From Comamonas granuli NBRC 101663 (GTDB lineage Bacteria; Pseudomonadota; Gammaproteobacteria; Burkholderiales; Burkholderiaceae_C), in the NCBI RefSeq assembly GCF_000739995.1, contig NZ_BBJX01000002.1:186001-250000 (forward strand): DNA of 64,000 bases, given 5' to 3'. Of the stretch, positions 59,455 to 64,000 are shown piece after piece (within the stretch, counting starts at the first letter, position 1; each line of letters begins with the position of its first letter). The position numbers and the translations under genes are program-made. The notes below the pieces were generated by a model. It did no database searches. It worked only from the letters and a program-made list of their open reading frames with translations, and had not been told where the DNA came from.

Positions 59455-60408
59455 TCACAACGCAGGTGACAGCGTGCGCGCACGCGGCGGCAGCGTTAGG
59501 CCCAGCAGCAGGGCCAGCAGCAGCGCCGCCACCAGGTTGTGCGCCAGGGCCAGCGCCAGGGGCAGGCCCTGGCCCACCAGGCCCAGGCCCAGCGCTACCT
59601 GCGCCAGCGGCAGCAGCACGAGCAGCCGCGCCGCGCCGCGCTGCCCGGCGCGCCGGGCGCGCCAGGCCAGCACCAGCAGCAGCGCCACCAGCGCCAGGCC
59701 GCAGCTGCGGTGCAGCAGGTGCACCAGGGCGCCGCCCGCCTGCGTGGGCAGCAGCCCGGCGGCGGGCTCCACCCACGGGTGCAGCGCCTGCCAGGTGCCT
59801 GCGCTCAGGTCGCAGGCGCCCCAGGCCGGGCAGCTCAGGCCCGCATGGCCCGCGCTCACCAGGCCGCCCAGCGCCGCCTGGGCGAGCAGCAGCGCCGCCG
59901 CCAGCCAGGCCCAGGGCGCCAGCGGCGTGGTCCCGCCACCGGGCCGACCGGCGGCCAGGGCCAGACGCACGCTCACGGCCACCATGGCAAAGCCGCCCAG
60001 CAGGTTGCCCAGGGTGACGGCCGGCAGGCGCGACTGCGCCGTCCAGCGCCCGAGCACGGCCAGGAACAGCGCCAGCCCCAGCAGCACCAGCGCCATGCGG
60101 CCCTGCGCCCCCAGCGCCGGGCGGCTGCCCAGGGCGGTCAGCACCATCAGCAGCACCAGCACCAGCGCCGCCGAGGCGATCACGCGGTGGGCCAGGCGGG
60201 CGGCGGCCTCGGCGCCAGCGGCCTCGGCGGCCGGCGTCTGCAGGGCCTGGCCGTAGCACTGCGGCCAGGGCGTGCAGCCCAGGCCCGCCTTGGACAGGCG
60301 CAGGTAGGCACTCAGGCTGGTGATGCACAGCACCATCACGACGCACACCCAGGCCATGCGCTGCAGCAGGCGCTGGCGGCGCTCCAGGGGTGTTTCAGTC
60401 AAGGACAT
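59455..60408 (-). CDS. ctaA: Heme A synthase-like protein (COX15/CtaA family)
   Basis: 317 residues from the ATG at 60408 (MSLTETPLERRQRL). Eight TM helices are apparent. Conserved marks: SAYLRLSKAGLGCTPWPQCYG (Cys-x5-Cys), LAHRVIAS (heme-ligand His), CPAWGAC (second Cys pair), LLHRSCGL (His) and LAHNLVAA (His). The fourth expected ligand, in the middle of the N-terminal half, reads VTLGNLLGG, with no His. CtaA oxidises heme O to heme A for cytochrome oxidases. It diverges from the heme-copper oxidase operon, sharing its 250-base control region. Confidence 0.88.
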   Translation of the reverse strand: MSLTETPLERRQRLLQRMAWVCVVMVLCITSLSAYLRLSKAGLGCTPWPQCYGQALQTPAAEAAGAEAAARLAHRVIASAALVLVLLMVLTALGSRPALGAQGRMALVLLGLALFLAVLGRWTAQSRLPAVTLGNLLGGFAMVAVSVRLALAAGRPGGGTTPLAPWAWLAAALLLAQAALGGLVSAGHAGLSCPAWGACDLSAGTWQALHPWVEPAAGLLPTQAGGALVHLLHRSCGLALVALLLVLAWRARRAGQRGAARLLVLLPLAQVALGLGLVGQGLPLALALAHNLVAALLLALLLGLTLPPRARTLSPAL

Positions 60409-60494
60409 GGGAGGAATTCCAGGTATTTGTGGTTGAAAAGAGACAAAGTGCGCGACCCTGGCCAAGGCCATGGCACGGGGCGGGAGATTGCAGA

Positions 60495-60582: not shown

Positions 60583-60624
60583 TTGATGCAAATCATGTTT
60601 TGCCCGACAGCAAAGGTCAAGAAT
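60583..60624 (+). promoter_or_regulatory. FNR/DNR-type box with class II promoter
   Basis: TTGAT-GCAA-ATCAT (60583-60596) is one base off the FNR/NNR/DNR consensus TTGAT-N4-ATCAA. A -10-like AAGAAT lies at 60619-60624, giving a predicted transcription start near 60631, so the box centre would be at about -41.5, the class II activator position. The leader of about 30 bases holds AGGAGA (60648-60653) before the first gene. Confidence 0.65.
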
Positions 60625-60660: not shown

Positions 60661-60816
60661 ATGAACCACCATGACGACGAGAACGAAAAAGTTCCGTTCA
60701 TGCAACAGTTGCTGGACAGCCCGTTCCTGCTGCTGTTTCTGGGCGTGATGTTCCCCATGATTATTTACAACCTGTGGGGCGTCATCGACATTCTGACCAT
60801 CCCATTGGCCAAATAA
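60661..60816 (+). CDS. Small single-TM subunit of the heme-copper enzyme
   Basis: 51 residues, too short for many gene callers: MNHHDDENEKVPFMQQLLDS followed by PFLLLFLGVMFPMIIYNLW and a short tail. AGGAGA stands 7 bases upstream of the ATG. The acidic/His-rich N-terminus and one hydrophobic helix (about 21-48) resemble the accessory small subunit (IIa-like) found with ba3-type oxidases. The CuA subunit gene begins 16 bases after the stop, in the same operon. Confidence 0.82.
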   Translation: MNHHDDENEKVPFMQQLLDSPFLLLFLGVMFPMIIYNLWGVIDILTIPLAK

Positions 60817-60832
60817 GAAAAGGAACCCAGCC

Positions 60833-61372
60833 ATGAGCGCAATACTCCCTCCCTCGGAGCGGCTGTGGTGGAAGCACCCGCTGGACCGTCTTGAAGCCGT
60901 GTGGATAGGCATCGCCTTCGTCTGGTGCATGGTCCTGTTCTTCATGATGGTGTTCTGGCACATCTACGGCAAACAGAACCTGGCCACGGAAACCTACAAG
61001 ACCACGCCCGAGAAGTTCTCCGCCCAGGCCCAGGCCGTGGTGGACAAGTACACCGTGCGCACCGAGACCGAACAGAACGTGCCCGTGGTCGCCCCGCCCG
61101 AGGGCTCCGACGTGTACCTGATCGGCCGTCTGTGGAACTGGTGGCCCATTCTCGAACTGGAAAAGGGCAAGACCTACAAGCTGCACCTGACCTCCATGGA
61201 CTACAACCATGGCTTCTCGCTGCAGCCGACCAACATCAACATCCAGGTGGTGCCAGGCTACGAGCACGTGATCAAGGTCACGCCGAACGAATCGGGCACC
61301 TTTTCCATCGTGTGCAACGAGTACTGCGGCATCGGCCACCACGAGATGGTGGGTCGCATCTACGTGAAGTAA
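60833..61372 (+). CDS. CuA-containing subunit II of the heme-copper enzyme
   Basis: 179 residues. One N-terminal TM anchor (about 23-45) and a periplasmic cupredoxin domain. The binuclear CuA site is complete: His126 in DYNHGFSL and Cys161-x3-Cys165-x3-His169-x2-Met172 in CNEYCGIGHHEM. It takes electrons from cytochrome c or a cupredoxin and passes them to subunit I. The short single-TM form is typical of B-family (ba3) and related NO reductases (NorS-like). The gene is 13 bases upstream of subunit I. Confidence 0.92.
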   Translation: MSAILPPSERLWWKHPLDRLEAVWIGIAFVWCMVLFFMMVFWHIYGKQNLATETYKTTPEKFSAQAQAVVDKYTVRTETEQNVPVVAPPEGSDVYLIGRLWNWWPILELEKGKTYKLHLTSMDYNHGFSLQPTNINIQVVPGYEHVIKVTPNESGTFSIVCNEYCGIGHHEMVGRIYVK

Positions 61373-61385
61373 TGCGGGGAATACC

Positions 61386-63086
61386 ATGACCGTTCAAACC
61401 ACCTACCGTACCTGCCCGCGCTCGGGCCTGCAGTTCGAGGCCCAGGCCGAGAGCCTCATGAAGATCAACGCCGTCACCGCCGTGGTGGCACTGCTCGTCG
61501 GCGGCCTGCTGGCCATCGGCGTGGTGCTCACGCGCTGGCCCGCGGTGCACTGGCTCGCGGCCGACACCTTCTACATGGTGCTCACGGCCCACGGCATCGA
61601 CATGCTGATCTTCTGGATCATCTTCTTCGAAGTCGCCGTCCTGTATTTCGCCTCATCCACGCTATTGCGCTGTCGCATCGCCACACCCAAGATCGCCTGG
61701 GCCGCCTACGTGCTCATGCTGGTCGGTGCCGTGATGAACAACGTGGCCGTGTTCCAGGGCGAGTCCAGCGTGATGATGACCTCCTACGTGCCCATGATGG
61801 CGCACTGGTCGTTCTACCTCGGCATCATCCTGTTCGCCGTGGGTGCGCTCATCGCCTGCGCGGTGTTCTTCGGCACCCTGGTCGTGGCCAAGCGCGAGAA
61901 GACCTATGAAGGCTCGGTACCCCTGGTGACCTTCGGCGCCACCACCGCGGCCATCATCGCCGTGTTCACGCTGCTGTCGGGCGCCATCATCCTGGTGCCC
62001 ACCTTCTTCCAGTCCATCGGCCTGCTCGACCACGTCGATCCGCTGATCTACCGCACCATCTGGTGGGCCCTGGGCCACTCCTCGCAGCAGATCAACGTGG
62101 CGGCGCACATCTCCATCTGGTATGCCGTGGCGGCCATCGCCTTCGGTGCCAAGCCCATGTCCGAACGCGTGAGCCGCGGTGCCTTCCTGCTGTACATCCT
62201 GTTCCTGCAGCTTGCCAGTGCCCACCACCTGCTGGCCGACCCCGGCATCAGCACCGAGTGGAAGGTGGTGAACACCAGCTACTTCATGTACTTCGCCGTG
62301 CTGGCCTCGATGATCCACGCGCTGTCCATCCCGGGCGCCATGGAAGTCGCGCAGCGCGCCAAGGGCTACAACAAGGGCCTGTTCGAGTGGCTGCGCAAGG
62401 CGCCCTGGGGCAACCCGACGTTCTCCGGCGTGTTCATCGCGCTCGTGGGCTTCGGCTTCCTGGGTGGCATCTCCGGCGTGATGATGGGTACCGAACAGCT
62501 CAACCTGCTGATCCACAACACCATCTACGTGCCGGGCCACTTCCACGCCACCGTGGTGATCGGCACCACGCTGACCTTCATGGCGCTGACGTACTTCCTC
62601 ATCCCCGTGCTCTTCAAGCGCGAGATGATCCTGCCCGGCCTGGCCAAGATCCAGCCCTACCTGTTCGGCTTCTCCATGTACTTCTTCTCGCTGGTGATGA
62701 TGGGTGCCGGCACGCTGGGCGTCTCGCGCCGCCATTGGGACATGGCCTTCAGCGGCCACGCCCTGGCCTATGAGTGGCCCGGTGCCGCCTATCTGATGAT
62801 GGGCCTGGTCGGCATCAGCGGCATCGTGGCCATCGTCGGGGGTGCGGCCTACGTGCTCATCACCGTGGGCTCGGTGTTCTTCGGCAAGAAGCTCGACGCC
62901 GGTGCCGTGAGCCCCAGGTTCACGCCCGTCTCGCGCGCTGCGCCCACGGCGGCCGCCCAGACCTACGGCTCCGCCGGTTTCGTGGCGCCGGGCACCTTCG
63001 TGCTGGCCATGTTCTTCCTCGTGTCCTTCGTGCTGTACTACTTCGTCAACTGGAAGTACCTCAGCCAGCTGTGGGGCCTGAGCTGA
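61386..63086 (+). CDS. Heme-copper oxidoreductase subunit I lacking the active-site Tyr (probable NO reductase)
   Basis: 566 residues with 12 or more TM helices. Heme and CuB ligands are all present: low-spin heme His69 (TAHGIDM) and His387, high-spin heme His385 (GHFHATV), CuB His231, His280 and His281 (ASAHHLLADPG). Oxygen reductases have Tyr four residues after the first CuB His (HPxVY); here the helix reads GHSSQQINVAAH, so Gln235 stands there. HHxxADPG and the overall pattern place it among B-family (ba3-like) enzymes. Loss of the cross-linked Tyr together with NsrR/FNR-type control points to nitric oxide reduction (NorY/eNOR/sNOR-like). An oxygen reductase annotation is the likely database label. 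Confidence 0.85.
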   Translation: MTVQTTYRTCPRSGLQFEAQAESLMKINAVTAVVALLVGGLLAIGVVLTRWPAVHWLAADTFYMVLTAHGIDMLIFWIIFFEVAVLYFASSTLLRCRIATPKIAWAAYVLMLVGAVMNNVAVFQGESSVMMTSYVPMMAHWSFYLGIILFAVGALIACAVFFGTLVVAKREKTYEGSVPLVTFGATTAAIIAVFTLLSGAIILVPTFFQSIGLLDHVDPLIYRTIWWALGHSSQQINVAAHISIWYAVAAIAFGAKPMSERVSRGAFLLYILFLQLASAHHLLADPGISTEWKVVNTSYFMYFAVLASMIHALSIPGAMEVAQRAKGYNKGLFEWLRKAPWGNPTFSGVFIALVGFGFLGGISGVMMGTEQLNLLIHNTIYVPGHFHATVVIGTTLTFMALTYFLIPVLFKREMILPGLAKIQPYLFGFSMYFFSLVMMGAGTLGVSRRHWDMAFSGHALAYEWPGAAYLMMGLVGISGIVAIVGGAAYVLITVGSVFFGKKLDAGAVSPRFTPVSRAAPTAAAQTYGSAGFVAPGTFVLAMFFLVSFVLYYFVNWKYLSQLWGLS

Positions 63087-63101
63087 TCGGAACCCTGGGC
63101 A

Positions 63102-64000
63102 ATGCACACCACCACGCTCAAGCCCTCCGGGCGCAGCATGGCGCAGTTGGCGCGTGACGTCATCTCGCTGTTCAAGCTGCGCATCGGGGTGCTGATCATG
63201 ATCACCGCGCTCGTGGGCATGGCCGTCACGCCCGGCCCGGCACTCGGCCTCGCGCAGGTGCTGGTGCTGGCGCTGTCGGTGCTGCTGGCGTCGGCCAGCG
63301 CGGGGGCGTTCAACCAGTATGTCGAATACCAGAGCGACCGCCTGATGGAGCGCACGAAAAAGCGCGCCTTCGTCACCGGCGCGCTGCCCCACCACCCCGC
63401 CTGGCTCGGCCTCATGGCCGTGCTGCTGGCGGCCGCGGTGGCGGCGGCCTGGCTGGCCCTCAACGGCGTGGCGGCGCTCCATGTGTTCCTGGGCGCCTTC
63501 TTCTACGGCGTGGTCTACACCCTGTGGCTCAAGCGCCGCACCCCGATGAACATCGTCATCGGGGGGCTGGCGGGCAGTTTTGCCGTGCTCGCGGGGGCGG
63601 CCGCCGTCGATCCGGCGCTCGGGCCGCTGCCCTGGCTGCTGGCCCTGGTGCTGTTCCTCTGGACGCCGCCGCATTTCTGGAGCCTGGCCATTGCCAACCG
63701 CGACGACTATGCGCAGGCAGGCGTGCCCATGCTGCCGGTGGTCGTCGGCCCCGAGAGTGCGGCCCGCACGGTGCTGGCCAGTACCGTGGCGCTGTTCATC
63801 GCCTCGCTGCTGCCCCTGGCCTATGGCGCAGGGCCGGTCTATGGTGTGGGCGCCCTCCTGGGCGGCCTGCACTTCGTCCGCAAATCCTGGCAACTGGCGC
63901 GCCAGCCTGCGCGCGCCACGGCCATGGGTTCGTTTTTTGCATCGCTGGTGCAACTGAGCGTCCTGCTGGTCGCTGCCTGCATCGACGCCGTGCTGCGTTG
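63102..64000 (+). CDS. ctaB: Heme O synthase (protoheme IX farnesyltransferase), 3' end beyond window
   Basis: About 299 residues are visible and the frame is open at the window end. It was not listed as a closed gene because of that. UbiA-type prenyltransferase with many TM helices: first motif NQYVEYQSDRLMERTKKR (about 70-87) and second LFLWTPPHFWSLAIANRDDYAQAGVPMLPVV (about 190-220). Compared with the canonical NxxxDRDIDxxMxRT, the first Asp is Glu and the middle is YQS. It farnesylates heme B to heme O. It follows subunit I by 15 bases, so the operon supplies its own modified heme. Confidence 0.9.
   Translation, partial: MHTTTLKPSGRSMAQLARDVISLFKLRIGVLIMITALVGMAVTPGPALGLAQVLVLALSVLLASASAGAFNQYVEYQSDRLMERTKKRAFVTGALPHHPAWLGLMAVLLAAAVAAAWLALNGVAALHVFLGAFFYGVVYTLWLKRRTPMNIVIGGLAGSFAVLAGAAAVDPALGPLPWLLALVLFLWTPPHFWSLAIANRDDYAQAGVPMLPVVVGPESAARTVLASTVALFIASLLPLAYGAGPVYGVGALLGGLHFVRKSWQLARQPARATAMGSFFASLVQLSVLLVAACIDAVLR

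Follow-up and report, generated by a model that had tools for sequence, protein, structure and literature searches.

A heme-copper operon of Comamonas granuli that very probably encodes an eNOR-type nitric oxide reductase

Introduction

Does an operon of Comamonas granuli NBRC 101663 with the look of a ba3-type cytochrome c oxidase operon serve the reduction of oxygen or that of NO? The question was raised by a window of 64,000 nucleotides, the whole stretch of DNA that was analysed (contig NZ_BBJX01000002.1, positions 186,001 to 250,000, forward strand). The original prediction was that of a CuA-dependent cytochrome c:NO oxidoreductase, derived from the B family, which most pipelines would call a ba3 oxidase, a reading that is supported at the sequence level by an active-site Gln, by a phylogenetic tree, by a link with NirS-type genes and by an upstream regulatory box. 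In our view, the operon very probably encodes an eNOR-type NO reductase, which would be made under low oxygen or NO and would remove the NO produced by cytochrome cd1 nitrite reductase.

Organization of the operon

The features of the locus, in positions of the window, were as follows:

59455..60471, minus strand: divergent CtaA/Cox15-like protein, divergently transcribed (Pfam 112.6 bits)
60583..60596, plus strand: FNR/DNR-type box TTGATGCAAATCAT, 64 bp 5' of the first ATG, with 9/10 matches to what we take to be the consensus
60661..60816, plus strand: subunit IIa-like single-TM protein, 51 aa (ORF list)
60833..61372, plus strand: subunit II, 179 aa, with the CuA motif C-x3-C-x3-H-x2-M (Pfam COX2 22.5 bits, cut-off 22)
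61386..63086, plus strand: subunit I, 566 aa, B-family-derived, with Gln235 in the place of the active-site Tyr (eNOR type; Pfam COX1 206 bits, cut-off 34.8)
63102..64000, plus strand: heme O synthase (CtaB/CyoE; NCBIfam TIGR01473 269.8 bits, cut-off 210.3), its stop codon lying just beyond the window end

The operon extends five genes beyond the window. They encode Sco, a cytochrome b-FeS protein, a protein of 168 aa, another heme-copper-oxidase-like subunit (HCO2), whose TM7 lacks the pair of His residues that hold CuB, and a cytochrome b-NADH reductase fusion. Most of the operon is also present in Castellaniella defragrans DSM 12141 (locus L068), an environmental denitrifier. The coordinates of the original prediction were right; the five further genes, with HCO2 among them, were absent from it. 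In the extended operon, one protein joins cytochrome b with Fer2-FAD-NAD domains and another joins it with 4Fe-4S/FlpD-like domains. For the 168-aa protein one helix plus beta strands were predicted; Pfam gave no match with E values of up to 10 allowed, and no structure match lay under E 0.001.

The CuA site of subunit II was complete, as had been proposed, and its motif was present in 80/80 copies of this subunit, 79 of which belong to the named loci and one to locus L183. The gene for this cupredoxin subunit lies directly upstream of that for subunit I, as it does in eNOR. The 51-aa leader, rightly described as a single-TM protein, fits a subunit IIa, a kind of subunit that PMC3128077 describes for B-type oxidases; a similar short protein occupied this place in 79/80 named loci.

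The CtaA-like gene had the same divergent place in 37 of the 70 named loci whose upstream DNA was long enough, and its product bears Asn where the canonical copy has one His in a pairwise alignment. Another heme O synthase and CtaA-like pair belongs to the aa3 locus on contig C27. A modified heme in the enzyme of the operon is possible.

Active site of subunit I

In the PDB, phmmer matched subunit I best with two ba3 oxidases, that of Aquifex (7deg) and that of Thermus (1ehk with its variants). They have in common with the present enzyme the superfamily fold, the six His, the helix IIa and a CuA subunit II. All six metal-ligand His (69, 231, 280, 281, 385 and 387) were invariant in a 10-sequence alignment reaching down to 48% identity. 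In the phmmer alignments with the PDB proteins GH-S-S-Q-Q was aligned on GH-P-V-V-Y, which places Gln235 exactly at the active-site Tyr, so that the ba3 oxygen reductases have the cross-linked Tyr where Gln is found here. The six His ligands and the Gln at the Tyr site, as first proposed, were therefore both found in the alignments.

A Tyr four residues after the CuB His of TM6 marks the B family, and this residue is Gln235 in subunit I. At the C-family position in TM7 no Tyr was seen by eye either (LQLASAHH compared with YMWAGPHH of the cbb3-like protein of the same genome). A ba3 oxidase with a relocated Tyr was rejected on these grounds; a replacement Tyr, which would have refuted the original prediction, was absent from the sites of both families.

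The Gln was kept in 41/41 proteins of the genome samples, the window's own included (39 with GHSSQQ and 2 with AHSTQQ), which came from 12 of 19 genomes of the order and 30 of 34 genomes of the phylum sample, with the window's own in both; these counts leave out seven or eight strong order-genome matches without a locus, and the order and phylum-sample matches at 28-31% identity. Gln also stood at the Tyr site in 80/80 named loci and in 3/3 plasmid proteins of 46-61% identity, Thermus and Thermomicrobium among them, and Tyr was found in 9/9 fetched plasmid relatives of 28-35% identity. Therefore, Gln235 is not a chance residue, because it is kept in every close relative read.

Phylogeny and known relatives

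A tree of subunit I was built from 41 rows chosen from the available sequences. The 18 Gln rows formed one group, present in 91% of the bootstrap trees, whose support was moderate (92/89) in a tree with long branches on several rows, and the 12 Tyr rows were grouped apart from them with a support of 100/99. Subunit I thus fell outside the clade of Tyr-bearing ba3 enzymes, the placement on which the original prediction depended. The biochemically characterised eNOR comes from Rhodothermus marinus; the tree held no such eNOR, and the link to a proven enzyme runs through the Gln and the published papers. In annotations, related Gln proteins go by the name of cbb3-type oxidase or b(o/a)3-type oxidase.

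The cNOR and qNOR enzymes have no CuA subunit. The present locus has both the CuA motif and the Gln, and the separate qNOR-type protein of the genome has another motif. In Table A4 of PMC8756737, cNOR and qNOR are listed with an active-site Glu, and sNOR and bNOR/CuANOR, which are likewise B-family-related NO reductases, with Asn at the site; subunit I has Gln instead, and its identity as sNOR or bNOR was rejected.

The eNOR kind with Gln has already been described, and the operon is a further member of it, not a new kind of enzyme. In the passages on eNOR of PMC8756737 the Gln is diagnostic, putative members are given for Betaproteobacteria and misannotation is noted; in those of PMC11388526 eNOR stands among the biochemically characterised enzymes, and in those of PMC8879329 ba3-a1 is listed as an NO reductase using cytochrome c. 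The enzyme named eNOR by Hemp and Gennis (alias ba3-a1) shares with ours, according to these passages, the B-family-derived subunit I, the Gln at the Tyr site, the upstream CuA subunit II and the frequent misannotation as cytochrome c oxidase, whereas the operon studied here adds to what they describe a heme O synthase, Sco, the two cytochrome b fusions, the 168-aa protein and HCO2. The degenerate B-family oxidase ba3-a1 of Magnetospirilli also lacks the catalytic Tyr, has Sco in its operon and is suspected of an NO role, but the text section of PMC6431628 that describes it makes no mention of a second HCO-like subunit.

Association with denitrification genes and upstream box

The distribution of denitrification genes was followed in 200 genomes of the order, 19 of which, from 13 families, had the enzyme. 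A cytochrome d1 (NirS-type) gene was detected in 18/19 genomes with the enzyme and in 37/181 without it (Fisher p 1.2e-10, a value to be read as uncorrected for shared ancestry, from a profile, PF02239, that also catches NirN and NirF). Both genes were on one contig in 11 genomes, with a gap of less than 25 kb in 7/11 and a minimum of 1.7 kb, and about 3 kb separates nirS from the IIa-II-I genes in Thermus thermophilus TF24. NirK was found in 0/19 genomes with the enzyme and in 31/181 without it (p 0.05), and NosZ showed no clear enrichment (5/19 versus 25/181, p 0.17). The genome of C. granuli itself holds NosZ and a NirS-type gene, the latter on another contig (C31), and three further heme-copper proteins that look by eye like members of the A or C family. 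It also encodes a qNOR-type protein and, therefore, the eNOR-type enzyme need not be the sole NO reductase there.

Upstream of the operon, a box with at least 8/10 matching positions was present in 54/80 regions, compared with 7.4 expected from dinucleotide shuffles, and in 9/79 pieces from inside the gene.

The second heme-copper subunit

HCO2 followed subunit I in 65/80 named loci, and 14 of the remaining 15 stop at most 5.6 kb from the start of subunit I, before the usual place of HCO2; one locus (L096) has the flanking genes and no HCO2. It was also present in 19/19 genomes of the order with subunit I. Most of the strong subunit I matches of the phylum sample from outside the order were not near an HCO2 match, no HCO2 was found in plasmid records, and none lay within 9 kb of the Gln enzyme on the plasmid stretches of Defluviimonas, Thermus and Thermomicrobium. 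As the Gln enzyme occurs in other taxa with no HCO2 nearby, HCO2 is an addition and not a requirement.

The heme His of TM2 and TM10 (H87, H365 and H367) were kept in 93/93 copies of HCO2. In place of the TM7 CuB His pair, the operon copies had Glu293 (62/63) and His294 (58/63), counted in copies of more than 400 aa from 62 of the 80 named loci plus the copy of the C. granuli operon itself. Among 30 wider copies of more than 380 aa, freed of duplicates and including one whose source is a close relative carrying the operon (L157) and one weak match (L190), the first position was Glu in 11/30 and Gly in 9/30, and the second was Phe in 18/30 and His in 6/30.

No PDB sequence match was found for HCO2 up to E 1. 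Its predicted fold (pLDDT 84.9) matched ba3 subunit I best, with cNOR 3o0r at rank 39 and qNOR 6l3h at rank 44, and in a profile comparison it aligned with eNOR subunit I across most of its length; its identification as a qNOR or cNOR was rejected for these reasons. Homologues of HCO2 adjoin CtaA (L176, L180; L188) and aa3 genes, neighbours that would suit a possible role as a pure assembly factor. Against this role, a homologue from another proteobacterium (L181) has a CuA subunit of its own encoded directly after it, so that the HCO2 family can form CuA complexes.

Discussion

In the proposed mechanism, the complex would combine the CuA-bearing subunit II and the IIa helix with a subunit I that holds two hemes and CuB and in which Gln replaces the cross-linked Tyr. 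Electrons from a periplasmic cytochrome c or from a cupredoxin would be taken up at CuA and passed on to the low-spin heme, and two NO would be reduced to N2O at the heme/CuB site. The Tyr, as the supplier of the fourth electron for O-O cleavage, would not be needed for this reaction. The NO would be that made by cytochrome cd1 nitrite reductase, and an FNR/DNR-type regulator would switch expression on under low oxygen or NO. Sco would provide the copper of CuA, and a farnesylated heme may come from the heme O synthase of the operon.

As an alternative, the operon might encode a genuine ba3-type oxygen reductase of high affinity, with some other group taking over the work of the Tyr. This reading would agree with the nearest solved structures, which are ba3 oxygen reductases, and with the conserved six His and CuA motif. 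FNR-type boxes also precede high-affinity oxidases, and such control would be compatible with a microaerobic oxidase. However, neither known position holds a Tyr, every close relative read has Gln, the Gln and Tyr groups are separate in the tree and the enzyme goes with NirS-type genes, which makes this reading highly improbable. Enzymes of the heme-copper superfamily show some cross-reactivity between NO and O2, and an NO reductase that also used O2 at a useful rate, at the oxic/anoxic border, would suit an organism that lives with oxygen, as its A-family and cbb3-type oxidases indicate. We regard this as unlikely, as nothing in the sequence sets such a dual enzyme apart, and the three other heme-copper proteins make an extra O2 sink unnecessary.

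The whole extended operon may also be one machine, in which HCO2 and the two cytochrome b fusions would pass electrons from NADH or FeS proteins to NO reduction, by-passing complex III. The regular presence of HCO2 after subunit I in the named loci, its presence in the order genomes with subunit I and the redox domains fused to cytochrome b speak for this proposal, whereas the Gln enzymes with no HCO2 nearby on the three plasmid stretches, in L096 and in most of the phylum sample outside the order speak against it, and we consider it conceivable but rather doubtful. Somewhat less probable is a two-headed system in Burkholderiales and their relatives, composed of a normal eNOR and of a CuB-deficient HCO2 fed by the cytochrome b fusions; HCO2 would then be an undescribed kind of membrane protein with two hemes and an oxidase fold, and it might be either a subunit for electron transfer or NO handling or a second NO reductase whose metal site is Glu-His.

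For the eNOR-type NO reductase that we favour, the main consequence concerns annotation: such genes are labelled as oxygen reductases by pipelines, so that the capacity of many Burkholderiales to form N2O has probably been undercounted, a point already in print for eNOR in general. The most interesting part of the cluster is HCO2, which, with a heme-copper fold that lacks the usual CuB ligands, offers a testable case of what becomes of this fold after the loss of its copper site.

Core genes and the active-site glutamine

The genes named in the original prediction were found to be real and correctly placed within the 3.5 Mb source genome (34 contigs), where the window spans C33:186001-250000, and its key residue was also confirmed: in alignments with structure-database sequences, Gln235 of subunit I (61386-63086) occupies precisely the position at which oxygen reductases carry the Tyr joined by a cross-link to a CuB His. 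The six His were invariant in ten relatives, with identities down to 48%. Together with the CuA subunit II and a 51-aa IIa-like protein, subunit I makes up the full B-type set IIa-II-I; many B-type enzymes have a short helix IIa (PMC3128077).

The Gln was kept in 41/41 proteins fetched from sampled genomes, the window's own among them, a count that leaves out matches of 28-31% identity in these genomes, and in 80/80 named loci, which are the best 80 of at least 573 stretches confirmed by scan; within this set the nearest subunit I was that of Acidovorax sp. 210-6 (93%), which would place the host probably among Burkholderiales close to Comamonadaceae. When 12 plasmid relatives were fetched out of 58 plasmid records with a match, Gln was present in the three at 46-61% identity (Defluviimonas, Thermus thermophilus TF24 and Thermomicrobium roseum) and Tyr in all nine others, at about 28-35%. 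In the subunit I tree that had been proposed as a check, 18 Gln rows of the 41 formed one group (92/89), apart from 12 Tyr rows (100/99), with a program warning of long branches, chiefly for the A-family row and the wider rows of HCO2, a second oxidase-like subunit described below. As a separate observation, TM10 of the TF24 protein (L146:8983-10668; one Thermus record) reads His-Phe-Lys compared with His-Phe-His elsewhere, an exchange by which Lys might ligate the low-spin heme.

The operon enzyme is very probably an NO reductase of the eNOR type, a known kind. The work behind the characterisation of eNOR is presumably that of Murali and others 2024 (PNAS), cited in PMC12569097. The NO reductase reading of the original prediction was right in substance but not new, as eNOR is already in print with Gln as its mark. 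In PMC8756737, Gln at the active-site Tyr position is the eNOR hallmark; PMC8879329 describes NO reduction with cytochrome c by subtype ba3-a1, which was then renamed eNOR, and in PMC11388526 eNOR is one of four NOR families listed as characterised biochemically. B-type enzymes that lack the Tyr and whose operon includes Sco are described in PMC6431628, eNOR is reported from Gallionellaceae in PMC10734462, and NirK and eNOR occur together in one operon (PMC4653789).

Association with denitrification genes

In a sample of 200 genomes of the order, subunit I was detected in 19 (E 1e-40 or better) and a cytochrome d1 match in 55, using a profile (PF02239) that also matches NirN and NirF. Such matches were present in 18/19 genomes with subunit I versus 37/181 others (Fisher p 1.2e-10, uncorrected for shared ancestry), the sole exception, G100, being 87% complete. 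NirK followed the opposite trend (0/19 versus 31/181, p 0.05), and NosZ had no clear link (5/19 versus 25/181, p 0.17). Both the cytochrome d1 gene and subunit I were on one contig in 11/19 genomes, separated by 1.7 to 25 kb in seven of these and by 40 kb to 2.3 Mb in the other four; in T. thermophilus TF24, about 3 kb lie between nirS and the IIa-II-I genes. The source genome has a NirS-type gene on contig C31, with subunit I on C33, and also NosZ. It further encodes a qNOR-type protein (C33:97118-98452, minus strand; locus L005) with a WVEGFFEVF motif and, as assigned by eye, one A-family and one cbb3-like subunit I plus a divergent cbb3-like protein.

Putative regulation and heme supply

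Upstream of the operon the following element was found:

60583-60596, FNR/DNR-type box TTGATGCAAATCAT, 64 bp ahead of the first ATG

Sites were scored against what we take to be the FNR/DNR-type consensus in 80 upstream regions, those of the window and of 79 named loci from the best 80 of at least 573. Sites with at least 8/10 consensus positions were present in 54/80 regions against 7.4 expected from dinucleotide shuffles, and with at least 9/10 in 19/80 against 0.65; control 300-bp pieces within subunit I gave 9/79 and 0/79. As FNR-type and NO-responsive DNR/NNR-type regulators have one common consensus, the box would point to control by low oxygen or NO, without telling which.

Two genes of the CtaA type and two CtaB-type genes above the cut-off were found in the source genome; the aa3 locus holds one of each, and the others lie at this operon. 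Aligned pairwise with the canonical copy, the divergent CtaA-like protein (59455-60471, minus strand) shares three of the His that we presume to be heme ligands, and Asn stands at the place of the fourth. A divergent CtaA-like gene lies within 600 bp of IIa in 37/70 named loci with enough upstream DNA, from the best 80 of at least 573. A dedicated modified heme is a possibility for the operon enzyme.

The operon beyond the window

The operon continues on contig C33 past the end of the window:

C33:250012-250875, Sco, after heme O synthase
End at C33:252473, cytochrome b protein fused to 4Fe-4S and FlpD-like domains, after Sco
C33:252470-252976, 168-aa protein, after this fusion
C33:252973-254412 (L007:7974-9410 in the locus as read), HCO2, after the 168-aa protein
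C33:254426-256342, cytochrome b fused to Fer2, FAD and NAD domains, after HCO2

Among the named loci (best 80 of at least 573), IIa and II were each present in 79/80, heme O synthase in 71/80, Sco in 76/80, the 168-aa protein in 66/80 and the cytochrome b-reductase in 71/80; contig ends truncate many of these loci, and each of the two cytochrome b queries also hits the target of the other. Heme O synthase was absent from seven named loci having 10 kb downstream, such as Castellaniella L068. HCO2 (at least 55% identity) was downstream of subunit I in 65 of these best 80 loci, interrupted by a contig end in two; in 14 of the 15 loci without it, the sequence ends within 5.6 kb of the subunit I start, the usual HCO2 start being a median of 5.7 kb from that point. 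In locus L096 (L096:15297-16100) the genes on either side are present and HCO2 itself is absent.

HCO2 was also found in 19/19 order genomes having subunit I. Elsewhere in the phylum sample, beyond this order, both were close on one contig in only a few genomes (e.g. G290 and G393), and no operon extension was detected in the plasmid stretches read from Thermus and Thermomicrobium. In Defluviimonas (L145:14526-14930), a hemerythrin gene follows a 172-aa protein, at the place of HCO2 in Burkholderiales.

HCO2, a relative of oxidase subunit I

HCO2 has 479 aa and is related to oxidase subunit I (Pfam COX1, 53 bits); a sequence search of PDB gave no match up to E 1. Its fold was predicted with confidence from 22 sequences (pLDDT 84.9, pTM 0.87), and in PDB the model matched subunit I of ba3 enzymes best (query-normalised TM-score 0.60-0.72). 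Ligands were counted in 93 copies, 63 from operons, including that of the window, and 30 wider ones. The heme His 87, 365 and 367, the TM6 His 234, and Arg426 with Lys427 were present in 93/93. The TM7 His pair is not kept: operon copies have Glu293 (62/63) and His294 (58/63), and the wider copies have Glu (11/30) or Gly (9/30) at the first place and Phe (18/30) or His (6/30) at the second, which makes a canonical three-His CuB site unlikely.

Homologues at 40-47% identity occur without an adjacent subunit I, and matches at E 1e-10 were obtained in 61/398 phylum genomes, weak matches to subunit I itself among them. At least three homologues adjoin CtaA (L176, L180 and L188). In locus L181 (L181:7521-9440) a CuA subunit II gene directly follows the homologue, an arrangement that suggests a separate two-subunit enzyme. 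The homologue of L161 has one in-frame TGA within the search match.

No mention of HCO2, which has no searchable name, or of the extended operon was found in the search listings and text passages of open-licence papers that were covered. The part of this operon that deserves specialist attention is HCO2 with its cytochrome b partners.
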